From Chloroflexota bacterium (GTDB lineage: Bacteria > Chloroflexota > Limnocylindria > Limnocylindrales > CSP1-4), in NCBI GenBank assembly GCA_021783095.1, contig JAJXUG010000013.1, positions 25,451-89,450 of the forward strand: a DNA stretch of 64,000 nucleotides. The letters run 5' to 3'. This document shows positions 8,214-49,455 of this stretch, piece by piece. The translations under genes and the position numbers were made by a program. The notes under the pieces are model-generated. The model saw nothing but the letters and a program-made list of their open reading frames with translations, was not told the DNA's origin and did not search any database. Position 1 is the stretch's first letter. Every line of letters starts with the position of its first letter.

Positions 8214-10361
8214 ATGCGCCGCGTCGTCATCCAACTCGGGACTCGCGTCCTCCTCGCAGCCGGGGTCGCCCTCGTGCTGGCGCTCCTCGTCGCGCCGCTC
8301 GCCGCAGGGGCCAGCCCGAAGCGCCTCGCCGGCCCGGTCACCGACGACGCCGGCGCCCTGCCGTCGGGCGCCGCGGCACAGATCCAGAGCGCGTTCGACC
8401 GCGTGCAGACCACGACCGGCGTCCAGCCCTGGGTCTGGTACGTGGACACGACCAACGGCGCCGACCCCGGACAGTTCGCGACCGACACCGCCAACGCGAG
8501 CGGCCTGGGCGGGGCGGACCTCCTCCTCGTCATCGCGATGCAGGACCGCGCCTACGGCTACTGGAAGGGCGACGCCGTCAAGCTGTCGGACAGCGACCTC
8601 GAGCTGCTCCTCTCGCGCACGCTCCCGGCCAACCTTCGCGCCGGCACTCCGGACAAGGCCGCGATCGACTTCGCCGACCAGCTCGGCGCGGCGCTCGCCC
8701 CGGTGCCGACGTCGGCCGCGACGGCCGCGGCCGCGAGCGCCGCGGTGGTCACGCCGCCCGCCGTCCCGGCATCGGGCGGCGGTGACGCCACCCTCGGCAC
8801 CCTGCTCGCGATCCTCGTCGTCCTCGTGGGCACGGGCCTTGTCATCTGGTACCTCGCGACGCACCGCCAGGCGACCGGCAACGTCCCCGCCACGAGCGGC
8901 GGGCCACGGGACGACCTCGGGCGCCTCTCCACCCAGGACCTCGAGGCACTCGCCAACAGCATCCTGCTGCAGACCGACGACGGGGTGCGCGACTCCGAGC
9001 AGGAGCTGGGCTTCGCGCAGGCGCAGTTCGGCGATGACGCCGCGGCACCGTTCGCCGAGGCGCTCGCCGGCGCCAAGACCGACCTCAAGGGCGCCTTCAC
9101 GATCCGCCAGCAGCTCGACGACGCGACGCCCGAGACGCCGGCGCAGCGCCATCAGATGCTGGTCGCGCTGATCGGGGCCTGCCGCTCTGCGCAACAGCGG
9201 CTGGACGCGCAGACGCAGCGGTTCGAGCAGCTCCGCGCCCTCCAGCAGCAGGCGCCCGGGATCATCGAGACGCTCCCCGCGCAGGCCGATGCGCTCGAAT
9301 CGCGCGTCGCTGCGGCAGCCCAGACGATGGCCCACCTCCGGACCTACGCCGACCCCGACTGGCAGGCTGTGGCACCGAACCTCGACGAGGCGTCGAAGCG
9401 CGTCGCGGCGGTGCGGGCGGCGGTGGACGCCGGACGCGCAGCGGTCACCGCCGGCGAGGGACCGAAGGCTGCCGCCGCGGCGCAGGCGGGGCAGGACGCG
9501 CTCGCGCAGGGCGCCCGATTCCTCGACGCGATCGACGCGCTGGCCAAGGAGCTCGACGCGGCCGCCGCGGCTGTCGCCTCCCAGTTGACGACCGCGGAGC
9601 AGGACATCGCCCGGGCGAAGGCGGCCTCGGGCGCCAAGGGCGCCGACCCGTCGGCCGCAGCGCGGGTGGCCCAGGCGGAGCAGCTCCTCGCGGATGCGAG
9701 GACCGCCCTCAACCCACCGAAGCCCGACGTGACGACCGCCCTCGACAAGGCGCGCCAGGCCGACAAGACCGCCGACGACGTGCTCGCGCAGGTCCGCTCG
9801 GCGCAGGAGGCGGCCGCCCGCGCCGCGGCGCAGCTCGACGCGTCGGTCCGGACGGCGCAGGCATCGGTCACCCGTGCGGGCGGTCTGATCGCAACCCGGC
9901 GAGGCGCGGTTGGCGCCGAGGCGCGCACCAGGCTCGCGGAGGCGCAGCGGCACCTGGACCAGGCGATGGCACTCGCCCCGACCGACCAGGCGGGCGCGAC
10001 GACCGAGGCCGACGCCGCAAGCCGTCTCGCCAGCGAGGCAGAGTCACTCGCCCAGCGCGACTACGGCAACTGGAACGATCCCTGGATGGGCGGTGGCGGG
10101 GGGCGTGGCGGGGGTGGCGGCAACGCTGGTGCGGACATCGCCGGGGCGATCATCGGCGGGATCATCGGCGGCATGCTGAGCGGCGGCGGCCGACGCGGCG
10201 GCGGCCCGTTCGGCGGCGGCGGCTTCGGTGGCCCGTTCGGCGGGGGCGGCGGCTTCGGCGGATTCGGCGGCGGCTGGGGCGGGGGTGGCGGCTTCGGCGG
10301 CTCGTCGGGCGGCGGCTCGTTCGGCGGCGGGGGCGGCTCGTCCGGGAGCGGCCGATGGTGA
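8214..10361 (+). CDS. TPM-domain (YgcG-like) membrane protein with coiled-coil region and Gly-rich C-terminus
   Basis: TPM-like VTDDAGALPSGAAAQIQSAFDRVQTTTGVQPWVWYVDTTNG; TM segment; long helical region; GGGGGFGGFGGG tail. Start chosen at MRRVVIQLG. Confidence 0.75.
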   Translation: MRRVVIQLGTRVLLAAGVALVLALLVAPLAAGASPKRLAGPVTDDAGALPSGAAAQIQSAFDRVQTTTGVQPWVWYVDTTNGADPGQFATDTANASGLGGADLLLVIAMQDRAYGYWKGDAVKLSDSDLELLLSRTLPANLRAGTPDKAAIDFADQLGAALAPVPTSAATAAAASAAVVTPPAVPASGGGDATLGTLLAILVVLVGTGLVIWYLATHRQATGNVPATSGGPRDDLGRLSTQDLEALANSILLQTDDGVRDSEQELGFAQAQFGDDAAAPFAEALAGAKTDLKGAFTIRQQLDDATPETPAQRHQMLVALIGACRSAQQRLDAQTQRFEQLRALQQQAPGIIETLPAQADALESRVAAAAQTMAHLRTYADPDWQAVAPNLDEASKRVAAVRAAVDAGRAAVTAGEGPKAAAAAQAGQDALAQGARFLDAIDALAKELDAAAAAVASQLTTAEQDIARAKAASGAKGADPSAAARVAQAEQLLADARTALNPPKPDVTTALDKARQADKTADDVLAQVRSAQEAAARAAAQLDASVRTAQASVTRAGGLIATRRGAVGAEARTRLAEAQRHLDQAMALAPTDQAGATTEADAASRLASEAESLAQRDYGNWNDPWMGGGGGRGGGGGNAGADIAGAIIGGIIGGMLSGGGRRGGGPFGGGGFGGPFGGGGGFGGFGGGWGGGGGFGGSSGGGSFGGGGGSSGSGRW

Positions 10362-35866: not shown

Positions 35867-38800
35867 CGGAGAACCCCGCACCTGCGCGGGGACGACGTGG
35901 GCATGCTGGCCTCCCCGAGGATGCTCGCCGGCAAGCCCCCGCGTGCGCGGGGACGACCGCCGCAGCACGCGGGCCCGGCGGGCGACCACCGGATAACCCC
36001 CGCGTGCGCGGGGACGACAACACGATCAACCTCCAGTGCAACGACGCGGACGGATAACCCCCGCGTGCGCGGGGACGACCCGATGCCGGCGGCGATCAGC
36101 GTCTTGCCGTTCGGATAACCCCCGCGTGCGCGGGGACGACTCGTCGCCCCAGTCGTCGGCCCGGCCGCTCGTCGGACAACCCCCGCGTGCGCGGGGACGA
36201 CCAGTCCAGGAACGTCCAGAACGGGTTGCCGCCCGGATAACCCCCGCGTGCGCGGGGACGACGCGGGCTCCCCTCGGTCGATGACCTCCGACGCCGGATA
36301 ACCCCCGCGTGCGCGGGGACGACGTCCATGGCGCCCCGTGTCGGGGCCTCTCGTGCGGATAACCCCCGCGTGCGCGGGGACGACCCGAGATAGGCGAGCA
36401 TCGCCTCGAAGCCGCACGGATAACCCCCGCGTGCGCGGGGACGACTTGCCGCCGTCCAGGACCGTGGTGATGAACTCCGGATAACCCCCGCGTGCGCGGG
36501 GACGACGACGCGGCGTGCGTGCTGTTCGCGGCGCACAGCGGATAACCCCCGCGTGCGCGGGGACGACGGCCGGATCGTGGTGCCACCGAGCGCGGCCACC
36601 GGATAACCCCCGCGTGCGCGGGGACGACCGCTGGGTCACGGACGCATTCGGGGCTCATCGCGGATAACCCCCGCGTGCGCGGGGACGACTTCTCGGTGGA
36701 CAGGCCCGTGATCGACGCGGTCGGATAACCCCCGCGTGCGCGGGGACGACATTTGGTTCCGGTTACATGGGCGGTCGGGACTCGGATAACCCCCGCGTGC
36801 GCGGGGACGACTTGGTCGCATCGTAGAAGCCCTTGGCGGTCACCGGATAACCCCCGCGTGCGCGGGGACGACGATGAGGTGTACCCGCACAAGCCGCGGG
36901 TGTCCGGATAACCCCCGCGTGCGCGGGGACGACCCGGCGAACAGGCTGCCGAACGCCGCGCGGTACGGATAACCCCCGCGTGCGCGGGGACGACCCGTTG
37001 GTGTCGGTGAGCGAGAGCCCGTAGGACGGATAACCCCCGCGTGCGCGGGGACGACTAGCGCCGGGTCACCGGCCTGTCCGCCATCGACGGATAACCCCCG
37101 CGTGCGCGGGGACGACCTGCTCGCCGACGTGGTCCCGATGGCCGAGGACGGATAACCCCCGCGTGCGCGGGGACGACTAGGGCGTCGCCGGGCCGCCTGC
37201 GGCCGGGCTCGGATAACCCCCGCGTGCGCGGGGACGACATCGGGCCGTCGGGGCAGCCGTCGAACCTGATCGGATAACCCCCGCGTGCGCGGGGACGACC
37301 AGGGGTTCGGGGCGGACGGGCACCTCCAGTTCGGATAACCCCCGCGTGCGCGAGGACGACGCAAGCCTCCTGACGCCGCAGGGCGCGCTGGCCGGATAAC
37401 CCCCGCGTGCGCGGGGACGACGAGCACCGGGGCTCGTTCAACGCCTTCCGCACCGGATAACCCCCGCGTGCGCGGGGACGACACCAACATGACCCTGCGG
37501 GTCAACTCGAGCTACGGATAACCCCCGCGTGCGCGGGGACGACGCGAGCTCCTTGCGCTGCTCGGGCGTCAGGTGCGGATAACCCCCGCGTGCGCGGGGA
37601 CGACGCCGGGAAGTTGGTGGTGTTGTTGGTCACCGACGGATAACCCCCGCGTGCGCGGGGACGACGCGGGTCGCGATCCCGACCGGCGTCCAGCTCTGGG
37701 ATAACCCCCGCGTGCGCGGGGACGACGACACCAGCGCGGTGTGGTACGGCTCCTACAACGGATAACCCCCGCGTGCGCGGGGACGACTCGGCGCACTTGG
37801 CGATCTGGTTGCGCGGCATCGGATAACCCCCGCGTGCGCGGGGACGACAGGGGACCGATCGCCGGGAGGGAGCCGCCGTACGGATAACCCCCGCGTGCGC
37901 GGGGACGACAACGCGAAGTCTGCCAAGTCAATAACCCATCGCGGATAACCCCCGCGTGCGCGGGGACGACGGGCGCCCGTGGAAGGGCGTCAAGGGCGAC
38001 TACGGATAACCCCCGCGTGCGCGGGGACGACCCGTCCACGAGGCCGACCGAGACGCTCGGCTCCGGATAACCCCCGCGTGCGCGGGGACGACTCCAGCCC
38101 GCGATGCTCCAGATGATGACGGGCCGGATAACCCCCGCGTGCGCGGGGACGACGGCCCGCGGGGGCCGATCCCGACGATCCGAGTCGGATAACCCCCGCG
38201 TGCGCGGGGACGACAGCAGCACCCCGGCGAGCGTGGACAGGTAGGACGGATAACCCCCGCGTGCGCGGGGACGACGCGATGTTCGGCAGCGCCGACCAGC
38301 TGAACGTCGGATAACCCCCGCGTGCGCGGGGACGACCCGCCCACCAGCGTCAGGATCGCCCCGGACTGCGGATAACCCCCGCGTGCGCGGGGACGACGCC
38401 ATGCGGGCCGCAATGGGGACGGTGCCCGTCGGATAACCCCCGCGTGCGCGGGGACGACCACGGGGCTGGCTCCGTCGGTGCGATGCAGCTCGGATAACCC
38501 CCGCGTGCGCGGGGACGACCCGACGACCTGGTCGGCCGGGGTCGCGGCGCCCGGATAACCCCCGCGTGCGCGGGGACGACTCGGGACAGGTCACGTCGGG
38601 GTTAGGACCGCGCGGATAACCCCCGCGTGCGCGGGGACGACTGGTGGGTGGTCGCGATGAGCGAGGGCGCGATCGGATAACCCCCGCGTGCGCGGGGACG
38701 ACCCGTACCCGACGTTGTCGAGCAGGAGGGTCTGCGGATAACCCCCGCGTGCGCGGGGACGACCCGATGATCGGGATCCGCCTCGAGCGGCCCTGCGGAT

Positions 38801-39434
38801 AACCCCCGCGTGCGCGGGGACGACGTGTACGGCGCGATGGCCGTGGACCAGGCGCTCGGATAACCCCCGCGTGCGCGGGGACGACGGGCGGCACCCGACT
38901 TACCGTTACTAACGTTACGGATAACCCCCGCGTGCGCGGGGACGACGGCCACCGGATCACCGGGTCCGGCGTGGTGATCGGATAACCCCCGCGTGCGCGG
39001 GGACGACCTCCTCAGAGGGGATGTAGACCATTCGGCCTCCGGATAACCCCCGCGTGCGCGGGGACGACATCTCGATCCCGATGGCGCGGCGGCCGAGCGA
39101 CGGATAACCCCCGCGTGCGCGGGGACGACACCATGTAGGCGAGGCTGCGGGTGCCTGTGTTCGGATAACCCCCGCGTGCGCGGGGACGACGGGTTGTCGG
39201 TGCCGATCGTGCCCGTGCCGCCCGGATAACCCCCGCGTGCGCGGGGACGACTTGGCCGCGAACGTCACGGCCGAGCCCGTCGCCGGATAACCCCCGCGTG
39301 CGCGGGGACGACATCGAGTCGGGCGAGGAGGCGGACCCGGCGTTCGGATAACCCCCGCGTGCGCGGGGACGACGTGTAGTAGCGGGCGGCCCGGCGGGGG
39401 TCGGCCGGATAACCCCCGCGTGCGCGGGGACGAC
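35867..39434 (-). CRISPR. Type I-E CRISPR array, 59 repeats / 58 spacers (29 + 32 nt, exact 61-bp period)
   Basis: Repeat in crRNA orientation GTCGTCCCCGCGCACGCGGGGGTTATCCG. Repeat ends fall at 35896 + 61k up to 39434 (k = 58). The two leftmost repeats are degenerate, placing the leader at the right beside cas2. Confidence 0.99.
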
Positions 39435-39475: not shown

Positions 39476-39748
39476 TCAGCGGATGCGAACGAGTGAGAGC
39501 CCGTCGAAGTCTACGATCTCGCGACTCGGGTCGCCCCAAATCCGGAACGCGAAACCCTGCTCGTTGTCCGTGCCGTAGACGAGCACGGCCGATCCATCCC
39601 CGGCATGGTGGCAGACGCGTTCCCATAGCTTCTCGCGCACTGCGGCGGTCACTCGGCCCAGGAACACGCCCGTACGAGGTTCGAGGAGCCAGCGGGTCAA
39701 CTCTCCGCGCAGCGAAGCCGGCACTCGCTCGAGGATGAGCAACGTCAC
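39476..39748 (-). CDS. cas2: CRISPR-associated endoribonuclease Cas2 (type I-E)
   Basis: MTLLILERVPASLRGELTRWLLEPRTGVFLGRVTAAVREKLWERV...GFAFRIWGDPSREIVDFDGLSLVR. Confidence 0.97.
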   Translation of the reverse strand: MTLLILERVPASLRGELTRWLLEPRTGVFLGRVTAAVREKLWERVCHHAGDGSAVLVYGTDNEQGFAFRIWGDPSREIVDFDGLSLVRIR

Positions 39749-40710
39749 GGACGACCGTCCGGCTGATCTGCCTCGCCGTAGTTGGTCCCGCCGGCGACAC
39801 TGGCTGCGCCCGGATCCCAGAGTCCACCTGGATATGCCACATCTTCGTCGAAGGCGGCCACATCGATGTCGGCCGCGGCTCCGAGCACGGCGTCAATGTC
39901 GGGCAGGATCAACTCCACGAGTCTCGAGGCGTGGAAGACGTCGCGACATCGTGTGCGAACCCGCCGCTCAAGATCGCCGCCCCCGGCGGCCACGGCCTCG
40001 AACGCGATGGGGATGGTCAGGTCGACCTTGTACAGGTCGGCGATGTCGTACACGAAGGACAACTGCTTGCCGGTATGGATGAAGCCGAGCCCAGGCGAGT
40101 AGCCGGCGCTGACGATCGCTGCCTGGACGACGCCGTAGAGGGCGCTGTTTGCTGCCGATAGGGCGCGGTTGACTGGATCCGCCGCGTCCCATCGATCACG
40201 CTGGTACGACCGCCCGGCCCATGGTAGGCCCGACTCCCGGCTCGCCCTGGCATAGGCCTCGCGCACTCGAACCCCCTCCATCCCGCGAACCTGCCGTAGC
40301 GTGAGGTCGTCGTCGACTGGCTCGGCGAACCGGATCGTGTACATCCGGCGCACGATTGCCATCCTCGCGGCCGGGTGCGACACAAGCGCCGCCTGACGCA
40401 GCAAGCGCCTCGCGCTCCTCGTTTCGCCCATGCCCTGGGCATAGAACCTGACGCCGGCTTCGCCGGTCCACATGACCAAGCAGCCCGTCTCGGCCAGCGC
40501 CCGGATCGCGGCGTGCGTGACTGTCGTCCCAGGGCCGAGCATTAGCGTCCCGAGGCTCGCACAGGGGATCGGCACCCTTCCCGAGGCTTCGAATGCGGCA
40601 ACGGATCGGCCATCCTGCTCGATCTTCGCGTGCTCCAAGTAGAGGAACGTCCAGCTGTCACGGGTTCGCGGAAGCAGGTGCAGATCTCGAAGCGGCCCAA
40701 TCGGCGACAT
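39745..40710 (-). CDS. cas1: CRISPR-associated endonuclease Cas1 (type I-E)
   Basis: DSWTFLYLEHAKIEQDGRSVAAFEASGRVPIPCASLGTLMLGPGTTVTHAAIRALAETGCLVMWTGE; NSALYGVVQAAIVSAGYSPGLGFIHTGKQLSFVYDIADLYK. Confidence 0.97.
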   Translation of the reverse strand: MSPIGPLRDLHLLPRTRDSWTFLYLEHAKIEQDGRSVAAFEASGRVPIPCASLGTLMLGPGTTVTHAAIRALAETGCLVMWTGEAGVRFYAQGMGETRSARRLLRQAALVSHPAARMAIVRRMYTIRFAEPVDDDLTLRQVRGMEGVRVREAYARASRESGLPWAGRSYQRDRWDAADPVNRALSAANSALYGVVQAAIVSAGYSPGLGFIHTGKQLSFVYDIADLYKVDLTIPIAFEAVAAGGGDLERRVRTRCRDVFHASRLVELILPDIDAVLGAAADIDVAAFDEDVAYPGGLWDPGAASVAGGTNYGEADQPDGRP

Positions 40711-40732
40711 CTCCCCTCCGGTCCCGCCAGGA

Positions 40733-41494
40733 TCAAGGTCGGCGCAGCTCTTCGTCAGTCGGAAGAGGAGCAAGCGTCAAAAGTCCGCAACCATACGCCT
40801 TGGCCGGCCCCACGCCGTTCAGAAGTGCGTCGCGCAGGAGATGGGCGTTGACCACACGCGCCCGACCCTCGAACGTGACTGTCGCGATCTGGACTCGCCG
40901 GCCCGGACCGGTACGAGCGGACTTCCGGAAATCGAGGCGCTCGCGGTTGCATTCCCGCAGGTCGAGCGCCCCAGCCTGTGAGGATCCGGCGATCTCAAGG
41001 CCCCACCGGCCTGCGCGTTCGATGAGCCAGCCCGTCTGGTGCGCAAGGGTTCGATGAGGCACTCGGAACCCTCGATGTCGGCCGGCCGCGGACTCGAGCG
41101 CTCGCCGTTGCGAGGCGCTGGGCGCAAGAGGCTCCATCACGGACTGCACAGGATTGACCCGGACCTTGAATACGTACTGCTGCCCCTCCGCGAGCCGCCC
41201 GAGAAGCGGCTGGTAGTCGGCCGTCTCTGCGAGGCCGTCATCGGACCCTGGGAACCCAGCCTCCTCTACGATGTGCGTGAGCGACGGCCGGGGCTCGCTC
41301 ACGATGAGCAGTTCGACGCGATGCCTGACCTCGCTCGCTGCCTGCCAGTCAGGTTCGAGCCTCCAGAGCACTCGCGGCCCGGCAGGCGATGGAAACGCCG
41401 CAAGGACAGCGGCGTGTACCACCTGTGGATTGCTCAAGTACACGCGCGCCTTGGCGCGCCTTGGGTTCAGCCAGACTCGAGACAGGTAGGGCAT
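40733..41494 (-). CDS. cas6e: Cas6e (CasE/Cse3) crRNA endoribonuclease
   Basis: MPYLSRVWLNPRRAKARVYLSNPQVVHAAVLAAFP...LLRDALLNGVGPAKAYGCGLLTLAPL. Confidence 0.95.
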   Translation of the reverse strand: MPYLSRVWLNPRRAKARVYLSNPQVVHAAVLAAFPSPAGPRVLWRLEPDWQAASEVRHRVELLIVSEPRPSLTHIVEEAGFPGSDDGLAETADYQPLLGRLAEGQQYVFKVRVNPVQSVMEPLAPSASQRRALESAAGRHRGFRVPHRTLAHQTGWLIERAGRWGLEIAGSSQAGALDLRECNRERLDFRKSARTGPGRRVQIATVTFEGRARVVNAHLLRDALLNGVGPAKAYGCGLLTLAPLPTDEELRRP

Positions 41495-41497
41495 CGG

Positions 41498-42304
41498 TCA
41501 CCCCCCAAGCAGCGCAAAGGGATCATGTGGCGTGGAAGACCCACGAGCGGCGCCAGTTGATGGACAACCAGTCGGTATCTCCACCCAACCTCGCGTCACG
41601 CGCCTGATCCCAAGTCGCCTGGTCAGAGGGTCGAACGAGATCGGAAGGTCCTCGAGCAGCTCGGCTCGCCCATCGTCAGCGGCAGCATCGAACACGGTTG
41701 CCAGCCGCACGACCGTGCCCAACGGCCGGCGGGCCACTACCTGGTCTCGCCGGAACGGCGACAGCTGCCATGGCAGCGCCGAGAGCACGACGTCAATGTC
41801 CTCGTCGAGCACCTCGCGCCCGCCGTCGCGTATCAGGAGCGGCTGGGCAGGAGGACACGAACGCCGCCCGAGGGCCAATGGGAACGCGGGGTGAAGGAGT
41901 GCGTCAGCAAGACCCCCGATGACATCACGCCGCCCGCGCACGGCGGCTACGAAGACCGCATCCTGCAGGTAGAAACGCTCGGTGAGGTGGGTCCTCTTGG
42001 TCGCCGACTTCTGGATTCCGCTTGGATACACCGCGGCAGAGAGCAGTGGCACCTCTCGGTAGTCACTCACGGTGTGGTAGTCGCGCAGGAGCGCCCCAGG
42101 ATCATCGACGCGAACGCCGAGCCGTAGTTCGACGAGATCATCGATCGGATCGACGCGACGCCTACCCTGAGCGGCAGCGAGCAATCCGACAATCCCCGAC
42201 TTGGTGGGCGCCAGGCCGGTGTCCCTGCGGTTGAATTGGCTGCGGATCCCCCAGGACTGCAGTGGGCCCGCGAGTCGAAGCGCGATCGTCGCGTACCCGT
42301 TCAT
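41498..42304 (-). CDS. cas5e: Cas5e (CasD)
   Basis: YATIALRLAGPLQSWGIRSQFNRRDTGLAPTKSGIVGLLAAAQGRRR. Confidence 0.95.
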   Translation of the reverse strand: MNGYATIALRLAGPLQSWGIRSQFNRRDTGLAPTKSGIVGLLAAAQGRRRVDPIDDLVELRLGVRVDDPGALLRDYHTVSDYREVPLLSAAVYPSGIQKSATKRTHLTERFYLQDAVFVAAVRGRRDVIGGLADALLHPAFPLALGRRSCPPAQPLLIRDGGREVLDEDIDVVLSALPWQLSPFRRDQVVARRPLGTVVRLATVFDAAADDGRAELLEDLPISFDPLTRRLGIRRVTRGWVEIPTGCPSTGAARGSSTPHDPFALLGG

Positions 42305-43452
42305 TCGGATGCGACCTGTGCGCGCCCCAGGAGTGAGGAGCCAAGTCGCCCAAGCATGTCGTCGAAGGTCAGGGCATCCCCGAACGCGGCCCGGACATCA
42401 GCGCTGCTCGTCCGCCCAGGGTCATATGTCGCGGCGACAAGTCGGGGCTCGTCTGCCCACATGGCCGTCGCCGCGCGAAATTCGCTGGCGAGCCGACCTA
42501 CCGAAGCCGATTCAATGCCGTCCGAGGCCTCCACGGGTCGCTCAAACGCCGTGACTAGGTTGACCGGCTGATCGTCGCGCACTACCACAAGCACAAGCGA
42601 GGGGCGAGTCCGGTGTGCGAACGAGTTCTGGTAGCCGCCTGGGATGGACTTCGCAAACGCCTCCACAAAGCCGAGCGTTCCCGCCACTGCCCCAGAGGTG
42701 TCCTCGAGCGTCTCCGCCAGTTGATGGACGGCTACGGTCGCGTACCGGTAGAGCGTCGCGGAGTTGAACTCGATCGTGCCGATCATGCCGGCACCAGTCT
42801 CCTCGGCAGGGTTCGTGTCATCGACCGCGGTGAAGTAGTCGAACTGCAGGTCGACGGCGTGCGTACTCACCGCATGAGCGACTTGGGTAGAGGCGTCCAC
42901 GTTGAGGTCCGCGAGATCCGCGACCATTCTCCCGAACAGTGCGACATCCAGAGAGTGCCCGGCGCGCAGGATCGGCTTGATGTCGACCTTCGCGGCTTCC
43001 GTCTTGAGCCCTTTGGCGTCCAGCGTTCCAAGCCTCGTCGCCACCGCTCCGACGGCGGCCGCGATGCGGTCAACCTGACTTTCGCCTACGAAGAGCAAGT
43101 AGCTGGTGTGGTTCTTATCCTTCTTGTCCATCGTGATCCCGGTGGCTTCGACCACTGCCGTGGCGACGCGGAGGGCCACCTCAGGGTCAATGGCCTGCTC
43201 TCGGACGAGGCGCTGAGCGACGAGGTCCGCAAGCCGCTTGGTACGGACGCCGAGCGACTCTCCCGGCATCGCATCCGAGAGGGCGAGCCGAGTCGCGCGC
43301 TTCCAAGCTTGCGATGAGACGCGTGCGCGGCGCGTCCCCCCGTAGATGGCCTGCTTGGGACTGCCGGTGTCGTCTCGGTTGATGTTGGCCGGCGGCACGG
43401 ACTGGATGACGTGGACGTCCACGAAGGTGCGCGGATACCTGCTAATCGGCAC
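42301..43452 (-). CDS. cas7e: Cas7e (CasC/Cse4), Cascade backbone subunit
   Basis: FVDVHVIQSVPPANINRDDTGSPKQAIYGGTRRARVSSQAWKRATR; GTG start inferred near 43452. Confidence 0.93.
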   Translation of the reverse strand: MPISRYPRTFVDVHVIQSVPPANINRDDTGSPKQAIYGGTRRARVSSQAWKRATRLALSDAMPGESLGVRTKRLADLVAQRLVREQAIDPEVALRVATAVVEATGITMDKKDKNHTSYLLFVGESQVDRIAAAVGAVATRLGTLDAKGLKTEAAKVDIKPILRAGHSLDVALFGRMVADLADLNVDASTQVAHAVSTHAVDLQFDYFTAVDDTNPAEETGAGMIGTIEFNSATLYRYATVAVHQLAETLEDTSGAVAGTLGFVEAFAKSIPGGYQNSFAHRTRPSLVLVVVRDDQPVNLVTAFERPVEASDGIESASVGRLASEFRAATAMWADEPRLVAATYDPGRTSSADVRAAFGDALTFDDMLGRLGSSLLGRAQVASE

Positions 43453-44053
43453 GGTGATGATCCCCTCCTGAGTTGTCCGGGTTTGCGGGCTTGCCAGCTT
43501 GCTGACCGTCTTGCGGCGCTCCCCAGCTGAAGTAGTCCCGTCCCCACCGTCGCCTGACTCTGGCGGCACGGTCTGGGATCGACCACAAGACGAGATCCCG
43601 GAACAGTTCGGTGTAATCGAACCCCAGCGCTTCGCCCCGAAGGAGTCCCACGAGCGACCGGAGGTGCCAGGCAACGGCGTCGACCGTCGGCGCAGTCGCG
43701 GCGGCGCTTACCCTTCCGTCGATCGCCTCGCCCCGCTCGCGGTAGGCATCGGACCATCGGAGGCGATGCAGGGCGCTCGCCACCGAGTGCCCCGGCTCAT
43801 GGACAAGGCGGTCGTGCTTCGACTGCTGATGAAACCCGAAGAGAACGAGCGCGTGGTGCTCGGCGACGAGCGCGGCCGACGGTGCTGCCGTCCCGGAATC
43901 TTCGACCGAGTAGAACCGCCACATCGCGGGCACAGAGCCCGCGGGCCGGCCAGCTCCCGACCGGAGCGCGGCAAGGTCCTCCCCCGGTGGATCGCCACCT
44001 TCGCGCATCACCCGTTCCCAGTAGTGGGAAGACTGCGTCTTGGGCTCCGCCAT
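43442..44053 (-). CDS. cse2: Cse2 (CasB)
   Basis: ALHRLRWSDAYRERGEAIDGRVSAAATAPTVDAVAWHLRSLVGLLRGEALGFDYTELFRDLVLW; position between cas7e and cse1; start MAEPKTQ overlaps the cse1 stop. Confidence 0.9.
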   Translation of the reverse strand: MAEPKTQSSHYWERVMREGGDPPGEDLAALRSGAGRPAGSVPAMWRFYSVEDSGTAAPSAALVAEHHALVLFGFHQQSKHDRLVHEPGHSVASALHRLRWSDAYRERGEAIDGRVSAAATAPTVDAVAWHLRSLVGLLRGEALGFDYTELFRDLVLWSIPDRAARVRRRWGRDYFSWGAPQDGQQAGKPANPDNSGGDHHRAD

Positions 44054-45690
44054 CACTTCGCACCCCCTGCTGCGAGCTGGGCCTTCTCTCTGTGCCCGAG
44101 CGTCTGGTGCACCTTCCGCCTGTACTGCATCTCGGCCGTCGCGGCGCGGTGCCACCACTCAGCGTTCCCCTTCGCGGCATCCGGCTTAGCGCGCTCATCA
44201 CGCCTCCCGCGAAAGGCGCTCGGACTCACGGCCGCCAGCATTGGCTCTGCAACCTCAAAAGCGATGCTTTCGGCGGTGGCCATCCATTGGTCTAGCGCCT
44301 CCATGTACGACAATGGGCTCGCCTGAAGCCGGGCCAGGAACTCACGGACTGCGGGATCCAGGCGACCGAGGAGACTCTCTGCCGAGCCGAACTCCGGCTG
44401 CGATGCGCCGGACGCTCGACGCAGGTCCGCCGCCAGCTGCCCGATGGCCATCCGAAGCCCGTCGCTCATGCGCGCCACCTTGACGATCGCATCACGCAGC
44501 GCCGGATCCGGGGTCAGCGCCGCCATCGGGAGCGGCACGGAGTCAACGATCACGTTCTCGATGACTGCCTGCTGATTGCCGTACTCGACCCCGATGGCGA
44601 GCACCTGTATGGGAAGGCCCTCTGGAAGGCGACCCTCGGCCACCAGGTCCGCGAGCTGCAGGATGAGGGAGGAGGTAACAGTCTCTCCGGGGCCCGGCAT
44701 TCGCCCGGCAGCGTCAAGGGCGAGCAGCCCGGGCAGCCCTTGCCACAGGGCCCGGTCCGATCGATGTCGCTGCGGCCGTCGCTTGACCTGACCGTCGGAA
44801 GCGTCGACGTCGACCCGCCGCATGCAGTGCGGCTCGACGTCGCTCGGCCAAAGCGAAAGGCGGTCTCCTGCCGTGAGTACGACACGGGTTATCTCCCCTT
44901 CGGCATCGTCAGGCTGGACAAGCCTGATTCTGCGGCTTTGCCAGGTCCAGAGATCGAGCAGACCCCTCGCAGGACGGGTTTCCCACCCCGGCCCAACATG
45001 CTCGGGCCGCCGCCAGACCGGACTGTCATCCCGGGCCAGGAGCCCCGCCCGGACTGGGAGGTTCAGCATGAGCGTGGCGAACAGCGTGTCGGCCCATGGA
45101 ATGAGGAGGCCCAGACGACCGGCGCAGCCCACGGGATTGCCCATCGTCTTGCCATGTGCGCTCAGTGGATCGCCGACCGCGCCGGTCTTGATCCCGGACG
45201 TGTCCCAGCACTGCGTTGCGAGCATCGCGAGCGCCGCTTCCCCCGCGCTGAGTCCGAGGTTGTCCGCCTCGGTTCGGGCACTGAAGAGCGGGACGTTGTT
45301 GCCGCTTGCGATCGCCGGGATTAGCAGGGATACGGGGCGTGTCTCGTGGTTCAATGCCTCGAGTCCGGCAACCTGACCGAAGGGATGCTCCGGATGGAAC
45401 AGGTCGAACCGATCGTGGTGCTCATCCAGGTAGGCGGAGGTTGCCGCCGAGTCGAGCCGCCCCAGCTCGAACCGATCCGCCCACTCCGCATAGTCCCTCG
45501 GGAGTCCGCAGGCATCCACCACGACCGGCAGCACCACTTGACGCAGGAGCGCCGCAAGCTGGAGCGGATCAACAAGAGCGAGTTGGCATTCGTGCGCCCG
45601 CTCCATCGCCTCGCGCAGGCCAACCTGCTCTGGCCCTCGCGTTGAAATGATCGAAATCCAGGGCCTGTCAATCAGATTGTAGATCACCAT
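44053..45690 (-). CDS. cse1: Cse1 (CasA/Cas8e)
   Basis: MVIYNLIDRPWISIISTRGPEQVGLREAMERAHE ... LARDDSPVWRRPE; typical Cse1 N-terminus. Confidence 0.95.
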   Translation of the reverse strand: MVIYNLIDRPWISIISTRGPEQVGLREAMERAHECQLALVDPLQLAALLRQVVLPVVVDACGLPRDYAEWADRFELGRLDSAATSAYLDEHHDRFDLFHPEHPFGQVAGLEALNHETRPVSLLIPAIASGNNVPLFSARTEADNLGLSAGEAALAMLATQCWDTSGIKTGAVGDPLSAHGKTMGNPVGCAGRLGLLIPWADTLFATLMLNLPVRAGLLARDDSPVWRRPEHVGPGWETRPARGLLDLWTWQSRRIRLVQPDDAEGEITRVVLTAGDRLSLWPSDVEPHCMRRVDVDASDGQVKRRPQRHRSDRALWQGLPGLLALDAAGRMPGPGETVTSSLILQLADLVAEGRLPEGLPIQVLAIGVEYGNQQAVIENVIVDSVPLPMAALTPDPALRDAIVKVARMSDGLRMAIGQLAADLRRASGASQPEFGSAESLLGRLDPAVREFLARLQASPLSYMEALDQWMATAESIAFEVAEPMLAAVSPSAFRGRRDERAKPDAAKGNAEWWHRAATAEMQYRRKVHQTLGHREKAQLAAGGAK

Positions 45691-45702
45691 GGCGCCACGT
45701 CT

Positions 45703-45716
45703 AAGTGAAGTACCGT
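45703..45716. promoter_or_regulatory. Predicted Cascade self-target upstream of cse1: PAM AAG (45703-45705) plus seed-match TGAAGTACCGT (45706-45716)
   Basis: Pseudo-spacer 45793-45803 is TGAAGAACCGT: 10/11 identical, single mismatch at position 6, 5'-AAG immediately upstream. Confidence 0.75.
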
Positions 45717-45764
45717 AATCTGTGCCGCGGGGTACACTATAGTCTCTCCGTCAAGTGCTCACCG

Positions 45765-45854
45765 ATAGTCCTCGCGACGCGAGGGTTGCCCTTGAAGAAC
45801 CGTGGCGTACTTGTGGTCCCCGCGTCAGCGGGGCGCGCCTCTCCGTTAGGCGCG
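45765..45854 (+). ncRNA. Putative CreR/CreA-type crRNA-like RNA (pseudo-repeat 1, 20-nt pseudo-spacer, pseudo-repeat 2, 3' hairpin) in the cas3-cse1 intergenic region
   Basis: Pseudo-repeat 1 (45765-45792) ATAGTCCTCGCGACGCGAGGGTTGCCCT has 21/29 matches to the repeat with one loop deletion and a compensated T-A stem pair. Pseudo-repeat 2 (45813-45833) GTGGTCCCCGCGTCAGCGGGG has 17/21 matches and an intact 6-bp CCCCGC/GCGGGG Cas6e-type hairpin. Abutting hairpin CGCGCCT-CTCCGTT-AGGCGCG at 45834-45854. Confidence 0.78.
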
Positions 45855-45875
45855 AGCGAGCGCAGGGGTTGTGCA

Positions 45876-48752
45876 TCACTCGAGCACCAAACCGAGCAGA
45901 TGGTCATACCGCACGACTTGTCCGGCGATGCTGGCGCGGCCGTCCTCGCCAAGGGCGAGGGGATGGTAGAGCCCCAACAGCGGGTGTCGGCCCCACGGTT
46001 CAGGTCCGGCGACGTCGCGGCCAGCGCGCCTCATTCGGGCCGGCAGGCGCACAAGAGACGCGAGCGCCTCGTCGACGCCAGCCTCGTCGTCCACGAACTT
46101 CCCGTCCACGACGAGGGGGCGGCCGCCGAGCGTGGCCAGATCACCGCCGTCGCGAGTCCGAACCAGGACAACCTCAGCCGCCTGCTGCCCCTCACGGACC
46201 ACGCCTGCTGACGCCTCTTCATCGGCCAACTCGTAGCCCAGATTGTGAAGGCCCGCGAGCGTCCGGGCCGCGAACGACCCCCGGACGCTCAGCAGGCCCC
46301 GCTCAGCGTCCGCCACAAGGCCCCGCAAATACCGCTGCTCCTCGAGCTCAGCGAGCTCCGCCGCAGCGCTCCAGCCCGAGGGAACAAGCACCTCGTCACC
46401 ATAGACGGCTGCGACCAGCCGCGGTACTTCGTCGGGGATCAGCCAGCCGCGATCCAAAGCCGGCTCGACGAGCGCAGCCGTCCTCAGAAGGCGGTGGTCC
46501 CTGTAGATCGCCCTGCTGCCCAAGGCGAACCTCGGCGCCGACCCAGCCGGCCGTTCCCACCCGCACACCAGCACACGTGGTTCGCGGAGCCTGGGTGGTC
46601 GCCATGACCGCTCGTGTCGGTGGAGCCGCCCGATGCGTTGCAGCAACAGATCGACGGGAGCGAGATCGGTGACCAGCAAGTCAGCGTCCACGTCAAACGA
46701 CTGCTCGGCGACCTGCGTGGCCACGAGTATGTGCCGGTGCGGGCGGCGATCCGTGCCGCGTCCCAGGAGGGCGAGCTCGCGCTCCGTACGAGAGGCTCGT
46801 TCGCCCACGATCAGCCGGCCATGGAGCAGTGCGACGTCGTCGCCGAACCGCTCCCGGAGCGTCGAGAAGGTCCGCTGCGCCAAGCTCACGGTGTTGCGGA
46901 TTACAACGGCGCAACCACCTTCCTCGAGGGAGTCGCCCAGAACCGCGGCGATCGCTGTTCCATCCTCGTCGAGGGGCTCGATGGATTCGATCCGGACGAG
47001 CCGGGAGGGGCGCCATGCCGAGCTGCGCGCCAGTCGCGACCACGGCCGGCCCCCGGCGACGCCGACCGCACGCACGCTTGGATAGGAGGCCTCGTCCATC
47101 GCGCCGACCGCCGCCTCGGCGTCAAGGTCCGGGTCGCGCCGACCGGCAGCCTGGAAGGCGCCCTCAAGGTATGCCCTTGCCAGCGCCTTCCGCATGGCCG
47201 GCGGGAGAGTGGCAGTAAGCAGGATCACGGGCGCCTGCGCAGACCCGAGCCAGCGCAATGCCTCGAACAAGTACTGGGCCATGTACACGCTGGCTGCGTG
47301 CACCTCGTCGAGGACAACCACCTTTGTGGCGAGCCCTGCGTGGCGCAGCATGGCGAACGGAGTCCGGGTCGCGGCAAGCAGAAGGTTGTCGATGGTGCCG
47401 ACCGCGATCGGTGTCAGGAGGCCCCGCTTCGGACCAAGAAACCACTCCGCGGCGTTTGCGTGCTCGGGCAGGTGCGAGCCTTCTTCGTGAGGCGACGACT
47501 CGTCGTCTATCGGCCCGAGGTGAAGTCGAGCGACAATCGCGCGCCATTGCGGGTTAAACATCCGCTTCCCGTGCAGCAAGGCGACGTTGGAATCGATCGC
47601 AGCACTTGCGGCCCACGAGAGCACCCGCTCAAACATGGGGTCGCTGGTCGCCTGCGTCGGCATACCAACGAACAAGCCATGCATCCCGAAGCGAGCAGCG
47701 AGTACCTCCGCGGCCCCCAAAGCCGCCTCGGTCTTGCCCTCCCCCATCGGGGCCTCGATGACCAGCAATCCGGATCCGGGTACGTCTGATGCGAGCCCGA
47801 CTGTCGCCTGCTGAACCGGGCGTGGCTGCACGCCGAAGCGGTCCGCCACGAGGTCGACTCCATTGGCGGGCCGTGCCGCCCAGCCGTTGCCCAAAGAGAG
47901 CGCACGCCAGGCGCGCGGCGCGCGGCGACGGGCCAGTTCCATGCCAACCTGCATGGGATTCGACACGGGAGGGAAGACGATCTCGTTGCTGGCGAGCCAG
48001 TCGGCCATGATCAGGAGCCCTGCGAACGTCAACTGGTCGCCGCGGCTCGGTGTGCCCGTGGGAGCAGCATCCCCAACCGAGGCGAAACCAGCCGCCCCGG
48101 CAACGAGCTCGACGAGTCGGGTTTGAGCCGCGTCCCACTCCCGGGTCCGACCATGATCGTCGGTGTCGGAGGGGGGCTTGACGAGGGCGACTGGCGGGAC
48201 GCGGCCGTGATGCCCCGCCAAGATCGGCCATGTCCAGTCGACGGCGTCCCGTCTCCAGCCGGCTTCTCCCGCAACCTTCCGAAGAATGGCGGCGCTTGCA
48301 CGGGAGTGATGCCAGGCGGAGTTCGAGGCGCTGATGCGGCCCCACGTCAACCCGGATGCCTGCACCGCGCTCCCCAAGGCCGGAATTCGACCCTGAAACA
48401 GGGGTGTGGCCTTCCCGACGTCGTGCACGCCGCACAGGAAGGCGAAGAGCTCGCGACCTCGGCCGTCCGCAATTCCGTCCATCCGACCACGAAGCCCAGT
48501 TGGGGCGAATTGGTCCCAAACGACCTCGCCCATCGCGGTCGTGTCGTACAGGTGCTGGAGGAGCAGGTGCGCTCCCCTGCCGCCACCCGGCGACTTGCCC
48601 CACAGCGTGAGTAGACCCGGCTCGGAAGCCGCGAGTTCAGCGGACGATTGCGACAAGAGGGCACCCCCGGGTTTCGAGCCACCAACGGGCAGCCTCGAAG
48701 CCAACCAGAATGGTCCCACACTTGCAGGAGCCAATGACAGCTTGTCTGTCAC
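45876..48752 (-). CDS. cas3: Cas3 helicase-nuclease (type I-E)
   Basis: HD: AFLCGVHDVGKATPLFQ; Walker A-like MGEGKTEAALGAAE; DEVH: VVVLDEVHAASVYMAQYL; motif VI-like LLLQRIGRLHRH. GTG start inferred at VTDKLSLAPASVGPFWLASRL. Confidence 0.93.
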   Translation of the reverse strand: MTDKLSLAPASVGPFWLASRLPVGGSKPGGALLSQSSAELAASEPGLLTLWGKSPGGGRGAHLLLQHLYDTTAMGEVVWDQFAPTGLRGRMDGIADGRGRELFAFLCGVHDVGKATPLFQGRIPALGSAVQASGLTWGRISASNSAWHHSRASAAILRKVAGEAGWRRDAVDWTWPILAGHHGRVPPVALVKPPSDTDDHGRTREWDAAQTRLVELVAGAAGFASVGDAAPTGTPSRGDQLTFAGLLIMADWLASNEIVFPPVSNPMQVGMELARRRAPRAWRALSLGNGWAARPANGVDLVADRFGVQPRPVQQATVGLASDVPGSGLLVIEAPMGEGKTEAALGAAEVLAARFGMHGLFVGMPTQATSDPMFERVLSWAASAAIDSNVALLHGKRMFNPQWRAIVARLHLGPIDDESSPHEEGSHLPEHANAAEWFLGPKRGLLTPIAVGTIDNLLLAATRTPFAMLRHAGLATKVVVLDEVHAASVYMAQYLFEALRWLGSAQAPVILLTATLPPAMRKALARAYLEGAFQAAGRRDPDLDAEAAVGAMDEASYPSVRAVGVAGGRPWSRLARSSAWRPSRLVRIESIEPLDEDGTAIAAVLGDSLEEGGCAVVIRNTVSLAQRTFSTLRERFGDDVALLHGRLIVGERASRTERELALLGRGTDRRPHRHILVATQVAEQSFDVDADLLVTDLAPVDLLLQRIGRLHRHERSWRPPRLREPRVLVCGWERPAGSAPRFALGSRAIYRDHRLLRTAALVEPALDRGWLIPDEVPRLVAAVYGDEVLVPSGWSAAAELAELEEQRYLRGLVADAERGLLSVRGSFAARTLAGLHNLGYELADEEASAGVVREGQQAAEVVLVRTRDGGDLATLGGRPLVVDGKFVDDEAGVDEALASLVRLPARMRRAGRDVAGPEPWGRHPLLGLYHPLALGEDGRASIAGQVVRYDHLLGLVLE

Positions 48753-48933
48753 AGCCTCCGATCGGGCTTGCCTGGCGTCTCGTGCGGGCCGCGCCGCAAA
48801 AGGCGCCTGTTCATCGCCGGGCGACGCGGTCGGGCATCTTCGTCGGCGCCTTCCGGCGTCAGTCGCCCGGGTCAAGAGGACCTCACACCCGCCACCGCTT
48901 CCTGACCGGACGTCTGGGCGGGAACAGCGCGGG

Positions 48934-49455
48934 CTACCTCGCGCCGGGGACCTCCGCACCCGTCGCCTCGACGCCGGACGGAACCAGGCCCTCCGCCGCC
49001 CGCTCCGCCGTCGTGCCGCCCTGCGCCGCGTCGCCGGTCGCGCCGTCGTCCGTGCTGGAGCGCAGCGTCAGCTCCTGCTCAGCCGCGCGCAGCCAGTCCA
49101 CCGCGCCCAGGACGAGCGGCACCGCGCCCGCGATGAGGAACCACGGCCCGAACGCCCCGGCCAGGGCCACCGTGGCGATCCCGAAGCCGACCGCCAGCGG
49201 GGCACCGCTCCGGGTCGGCACGGGCCCGGATTCGTCCGCGAAGGGCGCCTCGGTCGTGGCGGTCCCCCCTTCCGAGCCTGTCCCGGGATGCTCCTGCCGG
49301 ACGCCGCGCCGGAGGACCACGAACGCGGCCCCGGTGGCCAGGCCGAACCCGATCAAGAGCATGGTCCCGGCGGGCTCGTGGCTGAGGAACCAGTAGGCCC
49401 CGCCCACGAGGAGGGCATAGACCGCGAGACGGCCGAAGTAGCGGACCTCTTCCAT
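48934..49455 (-). CDS. ctaF: Cytochrome c oxidase subunit IV-like (CtaF)
   Basis: [50 protein letters not shown]; overlaps the ctaD stop. Confidence 0.75.
   Translation of the reverse strand: MEEVRYFGRLAVYALLVGGAYWFLSHEPAGTMLLIGFGLATGAAFVVLRRGVRQEHPGTGSEGGTATTEAPFADESGPVPTRSGAPLAVGFGIATVALAGAFGPWFLIAGAVPLVLGAVDWLRAAEQELTLRSSTDDGATGDAAQGGTTAERAAEGLVPSGVEATGAEVPGAR

Follow-up and report, generated by a model that had tools for sequence, protein, structure and literature searches.

A probable CreR-type cas autorepressor in the cas3-cse1 gap of a Chloroflexota type I-E CRISPR-Cas locus, with co-varying guides and targets in related loci

The window analysed here, a 64,000-nucleotide stretch of DNA from a Chloroflexota bacterium, contains a type I-E CRISPR-Cas locus in which the gap between cas3 and cse1 very probably encodes a CreR, an RNA that would direct Cascade to its own cse1 promoter region and thereby serve as a cas autorepressor. 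The same reading had been proposed in an earlier note on the sequence, which also held that a lack of guide-target co-variation among relatives would count against it. We find strong co-variation: of the 89 related I-E loci, 60 contain the module, with 38 distinct seeds among the 49 loci studied in detail and 40 perfect seed calls in a scan for which shuffled sequences predict 0.15.

A repeat-spacer-repeat module outside the array

The type I-E operon in the window is complete, as Pfam recognizes Cas3, Cse1, Cse2, Cas7, Cas5, Cas6e and Cas1, and Cas2 was identified by eye. The components of the locus are as follows.

35929..39434, minus strand: I-E CRISPR array of 58 repeats, period 61 nt (29-nt repeat plus 32-nt spacer)
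39476..44158, minus strand: cse2-cas7e-cas5e-cas6e-cas1e-cas2e, the remainder of the operon (Pfam; cas2 by eye)
44053..45690, minus strand: cse1/cas8e (Pfam PF09481, E=1.5e-86), start codon at 45690, the gene that begins the presumably repressed operon
45876..48959, minus strand: cas3 (Pfam Cas3_HD and Cas3 C-terminal domains), stop at 45876; located upstream of the gap rather than downstream of the target

The gap between cas3 and cse1 (cas8e) is 185 bp long (45691-45875). Its plus strand, opposite to the strand of the cas genes, carries a pseudo-repeat, a pseudo-spacer and a second pseudo-repeat in series (psiR1-psiS-psiR2). On re-reading the DNA, we recovered base for base the positions and letters that the earlier note had given for these three elements, the protospacer adjacent motif (PAM) and the target.

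45703..45716, plus strand: CreR target, comprising the PAM AAG (45703-45705) and an 11-nt seed protospacer, TGAAGTACCGT (45706-45716)
45765..45792, plus strand: pseudo-repeat 1 (psiR1), ATAGTCCTCGCGACGCGAGGGTTGCCCT, with stem CCTCGC/GCGAGG and 8-nt handle GTTGCCCT
45793..45812, plus strand: pseudo-spacer (psiS), TGAAGAACCGTGGCGTACTT, 20 nt (32-12), for which four Cas7e are predicted from L = 6N-4
45813..45833, plus strand: pseudo-repeat 2 (psiR2), GTGGTCCCCGCGTCAGCGGGG, with the Cas6e-type hairpin CCCCGC-GTCA-GCGGGG
45834..45854, plus strand: hairpin CGCGCCT-ctccgtt-AGGCGCG directly 3' of psiR2, a possible terminator that has no U tract

The gap thus presents repeat-like flanks that lie outside the array, surround a short pseudo-spacer and reside beside cas genes, which is the arrangement that characterizes CreRs. 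When compared with the consensus of the 58 array repeats, GTCGTCCCCGCGCACGCGGGGGTTATCCG, psiR1 is identical at 21 of 29 positions with one gap, and psiR2 at 17 of 21 over the first 21 repeat positions. The psiR1 stem carries compensated changes (CCTCGC/GCGAGG versus CCCCGC/GCGGGG in the array), such that both sides differ and pairing is retained. The exact hairpin GTCCCCGC-N4-GCGGGG is present in 57 copies in the array and only once elsewhere in the genome, at psiR2. The first 11 nucleotides of psiS correspond to the target with a sole mismatch at position 6, and 12 bp (45691-45702) separate the PAM from the cse1 ATG, both as previously described. A full 20-nt protospacer at this site would extend to 45725.

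The hairpin 3' of psiR2 folds with a stability of -12.1 kcal/mol, which is ordinary relative to shuffled sequences, and a search for a terminator with a U tract at the window module found none. Among related loci, the segments 3' of psiR2 have a mean stability greater than that of shuffled sequences. Folding of the window RNA precursor indicates that psiR1 is able to mispair with psiR2. Covariance models from Rfam gave no match at E<=1.

The guide-target match is not due to chance

We conducted a shuffle test in which psiS was held fixed, the remainder of the gap was shuffled with dinucleotide composition preserved, and both strands were evaluated with any AAN PAM allowed. Across positions 1-5 and 7-11, none of 20,000 shuffles produced a perfect (10/10) seed match, and two of the 20,000 produced at least nine matches. 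Within the 64-kb window, no AAN site other than the target reaches even an 8/10 seed match, and the 3.96-Mb genome contains the sequence TGAAGNACCGT at two places only, in the target and in psiS. Because shuffles do not reproduce the match and the seed is found nowhere else in the genome, the correspondence between psiS and the target is not a chance event. The probability of roughly 5e-6 offered earlier was an uncontrolled count, although its order of magnitude is not contradicted by the shuffles.

Guide and target co-vary among related loci

Cse1 is rare among the nearest relatives of this bacterium, being present in 3 of 126 genomes of its order and 3 of 177 of its class (the window genome included in both counts). 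In the two relatives that carry it, Cse1 is 33-34% identical and cas3 abuts cas8e, which makes an assessment of covariation among close relatives impossible. More distant Cse1 loci across the phylum mostly have no gap, and a coarse scan of them revealed no clear module. A BLAST search of the gap against plasmids returned no homolog, an outcome to be anticipated when the letters of a module change. The most similar Cse1 proteins that we identified are encoded by Streptomyces and Kitasatospora plasmids (approximately 40% identity; loci L054-L061) and by 80 genome loci from Frankia, Parafrankia, Streptosporangium, Nonomuraea, Actinomadura, Micromonospora, Salinispora, Saccharopolyspora, Streptomyces, Euzebyales, Nitriliruptoria and others. 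Most related loci have a cas3-cas8e gap of 110-330 bp.

A self-match scan of these gaps that made no assumption about the PAM returned targets flanked by AAN, paired with copies that reside beside repeat-like hairpins. A stricter scan of 81 gaps, which called for a PAM beginning with AA, a seed at positions 1-5 and 7-11, and a downstream hairpin, yielded perfect seeds in 40 gaps and 9/10 seeds in six, compared with 0.15 and 0.90 expected from shuffles. The same scan of the other strand of the 81 gaps gave no 10/10 call. The detailed set of 49 loci includes three (L071, L085 and L119) in which psiR2 lies past the end of cas3 or forms a weaker stem. Searches that began from psiR2-like sequences added 11 loci with 10/10 seeds, and in all 60 loci the orientation and placement of the module are the same as in the window.

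Each psiS in the detailed set matches the target of its own genome at an average of 9.88 of ten positions, versus 4.70 of ten for the targets of other genomes. Across positions 1-5 and 7-11, 484 of 490 comparisons are matches, a figure that must be read with the selection criterion (at least 9/10 at these same positions) in mind, so that the informative features are the abrupt edges of the match, the diversity of the seeds and their rarity in shuffles. Just inside and outside these edges, position 6 is matched in 9 of the 49 loci and position 12 in 11. We considered the possibility that the position-6 mismatch is itself a selected feature, and make no claim of it since this frequency fits free drift. 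When mapped on the Cse1 tree, substitutions at the ten positions number at least 102 on the psiS side and at least 105 on the target side. Guide and target therefore co-vary, and their pairing is maintained by selection. Four of the six seed mismatches are a G in psiS facing a target A at position 2, a combination that corresponds to an rG.dT wobble and suggests that the pairing partner is an RNA. The binding rules that the earlier note had drawn from established Cascade behaviour (position 6 free, pairing that stops after position 11, and an AAN PAM) are apparent across the relatives.

One gap carries an additional arrangement. In Frankia nepalensis (L076), two target-like sites, AAT-TGGGTGCCGGT and AAC-TGGGTGCCTGT, reside in tandem 19 nt apart and possibly constitute a double CreR operator.

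Pseudo-repeat stems differ in their retention

A psiR2 stem of at least five Watson-Crick pairs is present in all 49 detailed loci. The psiR1 stem is intact in the window and kept in 22 of the 49 loci, and is lost in the other 27, where the handle and 3' arm are mostly kept. Cas6e cutting at psiR1 therefore cannot be general. Judging from these stems, psiR1 processing is probably dispensable in many loci, and many CreRs may acquire their 5' end independently of Cas6e cleavage.

Guide lengths fall on a six-nucleotide lattice

We defined guide length as the distance from the start of psiS to the start of psiR2, and our searches were open to lengths from about 7 to 43-45 nt. Among the 60 loci, guides of 14 (12 loci), 16 (1), 20 (24), 21 (3), 26 (4), 32 (15) and 33 nt (1) were observed, such that 55 of 60 are exactly 14, 20, 26 or 32 nt long. 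These loci are related by descent and hence are not independent, and on the Cse1 tree of the 49-locus set guide length changed at least nine times, with every change falling on or beside the lattice.

In type I-F1 Cascade, the relation L = 6N-4 links spacer length L to the number N of Cas7 subunits (PMC7296934). Type I-E Cascade is active with spacers shortened by 6 or 12, according to a passage in the same source that cites Kuznedelov et al. 2016. Since CreR guide lengths fall on the 6N-4 lattice, we infer that these RNAs build Cascades with three to six Cas7e subunits, and with four in the window.

The target would overlie the cse1 promoter

In 34 of the 49 detailed loci, the distance between the target and the cse1 start codon is 10-36 nt. 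Three elements in the window gap bear on where transcription might begin.

45712..45717, minus strand: TACGGT, which probably serves as the -10 hexamer for cse1 and coincides exactly with target positions 7-12
45733..45738, plus strand: TACACT, a possible creR -10 element predicted from sequence, 26 nt upstream of psiR1
45736-45743: palindrome ACTATAGT, in the interval from which creR and cse1 diverge and overlapped by TACACT

On the coding strand, the hexamer formed by target positions 12 to 7 starts with TA in 29 of the 49 loci, and TAAACA is its most common form. The hexamer under the target is thus likely to be the cse1 -10 element. Enrichment of a -35 element upstream of this hexamer was tested in the homologous loci and was not found, and a promoter scan of the window gap detected no plausible sigma-70 site for either creR (plus strand) or cse1. 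By eye, TAnnnT elements are similarly placed in several relatives, and it is possible that the palindrome represents a symmetric -10 element shared by the two divergent transcripts.

A Streptomyces sub-clade (L055, L056, L061, L114, L118, L121, L124, L125, L128 and L138) exhibits a different spacing, with the target approximately 110-127 nt from the cse1 start. The intervening leader, 84-134 nt long, is structured and contains recurrent short hairpins such as ACGTCTGGGGAGACGT, and it could represent a 5' untranslated region element or a hidden small RNA.

These features suggest a mechanism for the window module. Cas6e would process a short transcript, divergent from cse1, at psiR2 and perhaps also at psiR1, which would leave an RNA of about 49 nt consisting of the 8-nt handle, the 20-nt guide and a hairpin. 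Judged by its guide length, this RNA would assemble a Cascade with four, not six, Cas7e subunits. The AAG PAM and ten seed pairs (positions 1-5 and 7-11, with position 6 flipped out) would then place the complex on the likely cse1 -10 element. Because the target underlies this element, CreR-Cascade would occupy the -10 region and block transcription of cse1-cse2-cas7-cas5-cas6e-cas1-cas2, and because pairing ends after position 11, the block is expected to occur without cleavage of the chromosome. The cas3 gene lies upstream of the target and so would be outside this control. Transcription, assembly, repression and a feedback that senses Cascade are all predicted here from the published CreR systems. 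Relief of repression by abundant crRNAs or anti-CRISPRs is carried over from published work on CreRs (PMC13131331, PMC12737573) and would operate in the window by analogy, as would the derepression that the earlier note proposed for cells in which Cascade is depleted or blocked by anti-CRISPRs.

Alternative explanations for the module

The psiR1-psiS-psiR2 layout and the 11-bp seed are also shared with CreA (PMC10989794, PMC9458426), and hence the guide might instead repress a hidden toxin RNA or small protein, as in CreTA or CrePA systems, with cas regulation being secondary. The long structured leader of the Streptomyces sub-clade could hide such an RNA. However, the 12 bp between the PAM and the cse1 ATG in the window, like the spacing of at most 36 nt to the start codon in 34 of 49 loci, provide no room for a toxin gene between target and cse1. 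We therefore reject the CreTA reading of the window module and consider a hidden toxin or small protein very unlikely to be its main purpose.

The degeneracy of both pseudo-repeats, together with the fact that self-matching spacers can be acquired, could be explained if the module were a decayed mini-array holding one self-derived spacer, a functionless relic of self-acquisition. Such a relic would not be expected to accumulate about 100 compensated seed changes while always keeping the psiR2 stem intact and the guide lengths quantised, all of which need continuing selection; moreover, the spacer matches its target at only ten seed positions, and the co-variation contradicts this reading. This explanation is exceedingly improbable. 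An ordinary array with a self-targeting spacer was rejected as well, given that the repeats are degenerate, the spacer is 20 nt rather than 32 nt, and the match is limited to the seed. An equally poor prospect is a repeated operator for a protein regulator of the cas promoter that involves no RNA guide. The presence of an 11-bp motif twice within one promoter region does resemble a pair of operator sites, but most genomes have a different motif, whose two copies nonetheless agree with each other, and position 6 remains free. In addition, one copy is located between a repeat-type handle and a Cas6e-type hairpin, and the other is accompanied by a PAM beginning with AA.

Relation to known CRISPR-associated regulators

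CreRs of types I-B, I-E and V-A have already been published (Liu et al. 2023, Cell Host Microbe), as cited in passages of PMC13131331, PMC12737573 and PMC12948488. The I-E CreR is therefore a known kind of regulator, and the window module is a further example rather than a new kind. It shares with published CreRs its repeat-like flanks, a short guide with a limited match to its own cas promoter, the lack of a toxin gene, and a subtype, I-E, that is already represented. The CreR passages of these three sources do not describe quantisation of guide lengths on the 6N-4 series, placement on the divergent strand between cas3 and cas8e, or an E. coli candidate; nor did the literature searched, in which the primary CreR paper is represented through reviews, mention length quantisation or an E. 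coli CreR. Short guides in type I-B systems repress without interference (PMC10989794). The CreTA/CreA systems of haloarchaeal type I-B and Acinetobacter type I-F resemble the window module in their psiR1-psiS-psiR2 layout, their 11-bp promoter seed and their use of Cascade as the repressor, but they target a toxin gene, whereas the window module targets the cas8e promoter region.

In Streptococcus pyogenes, the long-form tracrRNA (tracr-L) is a short-guide RNA that redirects Cas9 to its own promoter, and anti-CRISPRs relieve the repression. The likeness to the window is that a Cas effector is reprogrammed by a short-guide RNA against its own promoter, although tracr-L belongs to a class 2 system, operates with Cas9 and tracrRNA, and does not have a repeat-spacer-repeat unit. 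Cas9 autorepression is cited in a passage of PMC13131331.

A candidate CreR in E. coli K-12

A gap scan of the E. coli K-12 MG1655 region NC_000913 2875000-2892000 (L142) identified a comparable arrangement between cas3 and casA, at the following positions within that region.

~9482-9510, plus strand: pseudo-repeat of the candidate creR, with the guide beginning at 9511
~9354-9367: candidate target with PAM AAG

On the strand opposite to the cas genes, the pseudo-repeat ACCTTCCCTACTTAAGTAGGGATAAACCG ends in the exact repeat end GGGATAAACCG and has a compensated stem, CCCTAC/GTAGGG. Outside the array, GGGATAAACCG is present in a single copy within the 17-kb MG1655 region. The guide TTATTGGTCTT matches AAG-TTATTCGTTTT, earlier in the gap, at positions 1-5, 7, 8, 10 and 11. 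When the MG1655 gap is shuffled, 0.025% of the sequences contain an equivalent site with an AAG PAM, a proportion that rises to 0.25% if any of four common PAMs is allowed. The K-12-type gap is present in 1,128 of 5,426 E. coli genomes. A comparison of five E. coli variants revealed no change in either the pseudo-repeat or the guide seed. Strain P276M, which is divergent, retains an intact target within surroundings that have been rewritten, and position 12 is mismatched in the variants other than K-12. In Thermus HB8 and in the other E. coli I-E type, the gap is almost absent.

The anti-Pcas promoter of this gap, whose role is recorded as unknown, produces an RNA of 150-200 nt (PMC10011333, PMC7074321), and this transcript resembles the window creR in being a divergent RNA from the cas3-casA gap of an I-E locus. 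The E. coli arrangement differs in having one pseudo-repeat rather than two and in residing in an AT-rich, H-NS-silenced region. We lean towards the view that the K-12 gap carries a creR on the anti-Pcas strand.

Implications

The evidence is evenly balanced on a broader proposal, namely that type I-E CreRs constitute an old family that assembles dedicated small Cascades, in which guides kept by evolution at 14, 20, 26 or 32 nt correspond to three, four, five or six Cas7e subunits, and which perhaps reaches E. coli K-12 with the anti-Pcas transcript acting as a CreR on the casA promoter region. If the E. coli candidate is genuine, the role of anti-Pcas would become testable in the best-studied type I system (PMC10011333). 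The quantised guide lengths would be a direct sign that cells build sub-stoichiometric Cascades for the purpose of regulation. Furthermore, dozens of natural seed/target pairs offer a readout of Cascade rules, in which positions 1-5 and 7-11 are needed, position 6 is free, pairing stops at 11, and a G.T wobble is tolerated at position 2. For the window I-E system and about 60 relatives across Actinomycetota, the CreR reading predicts how each system adjusts its own Cas levels and reacts to anti-CRISPRs.
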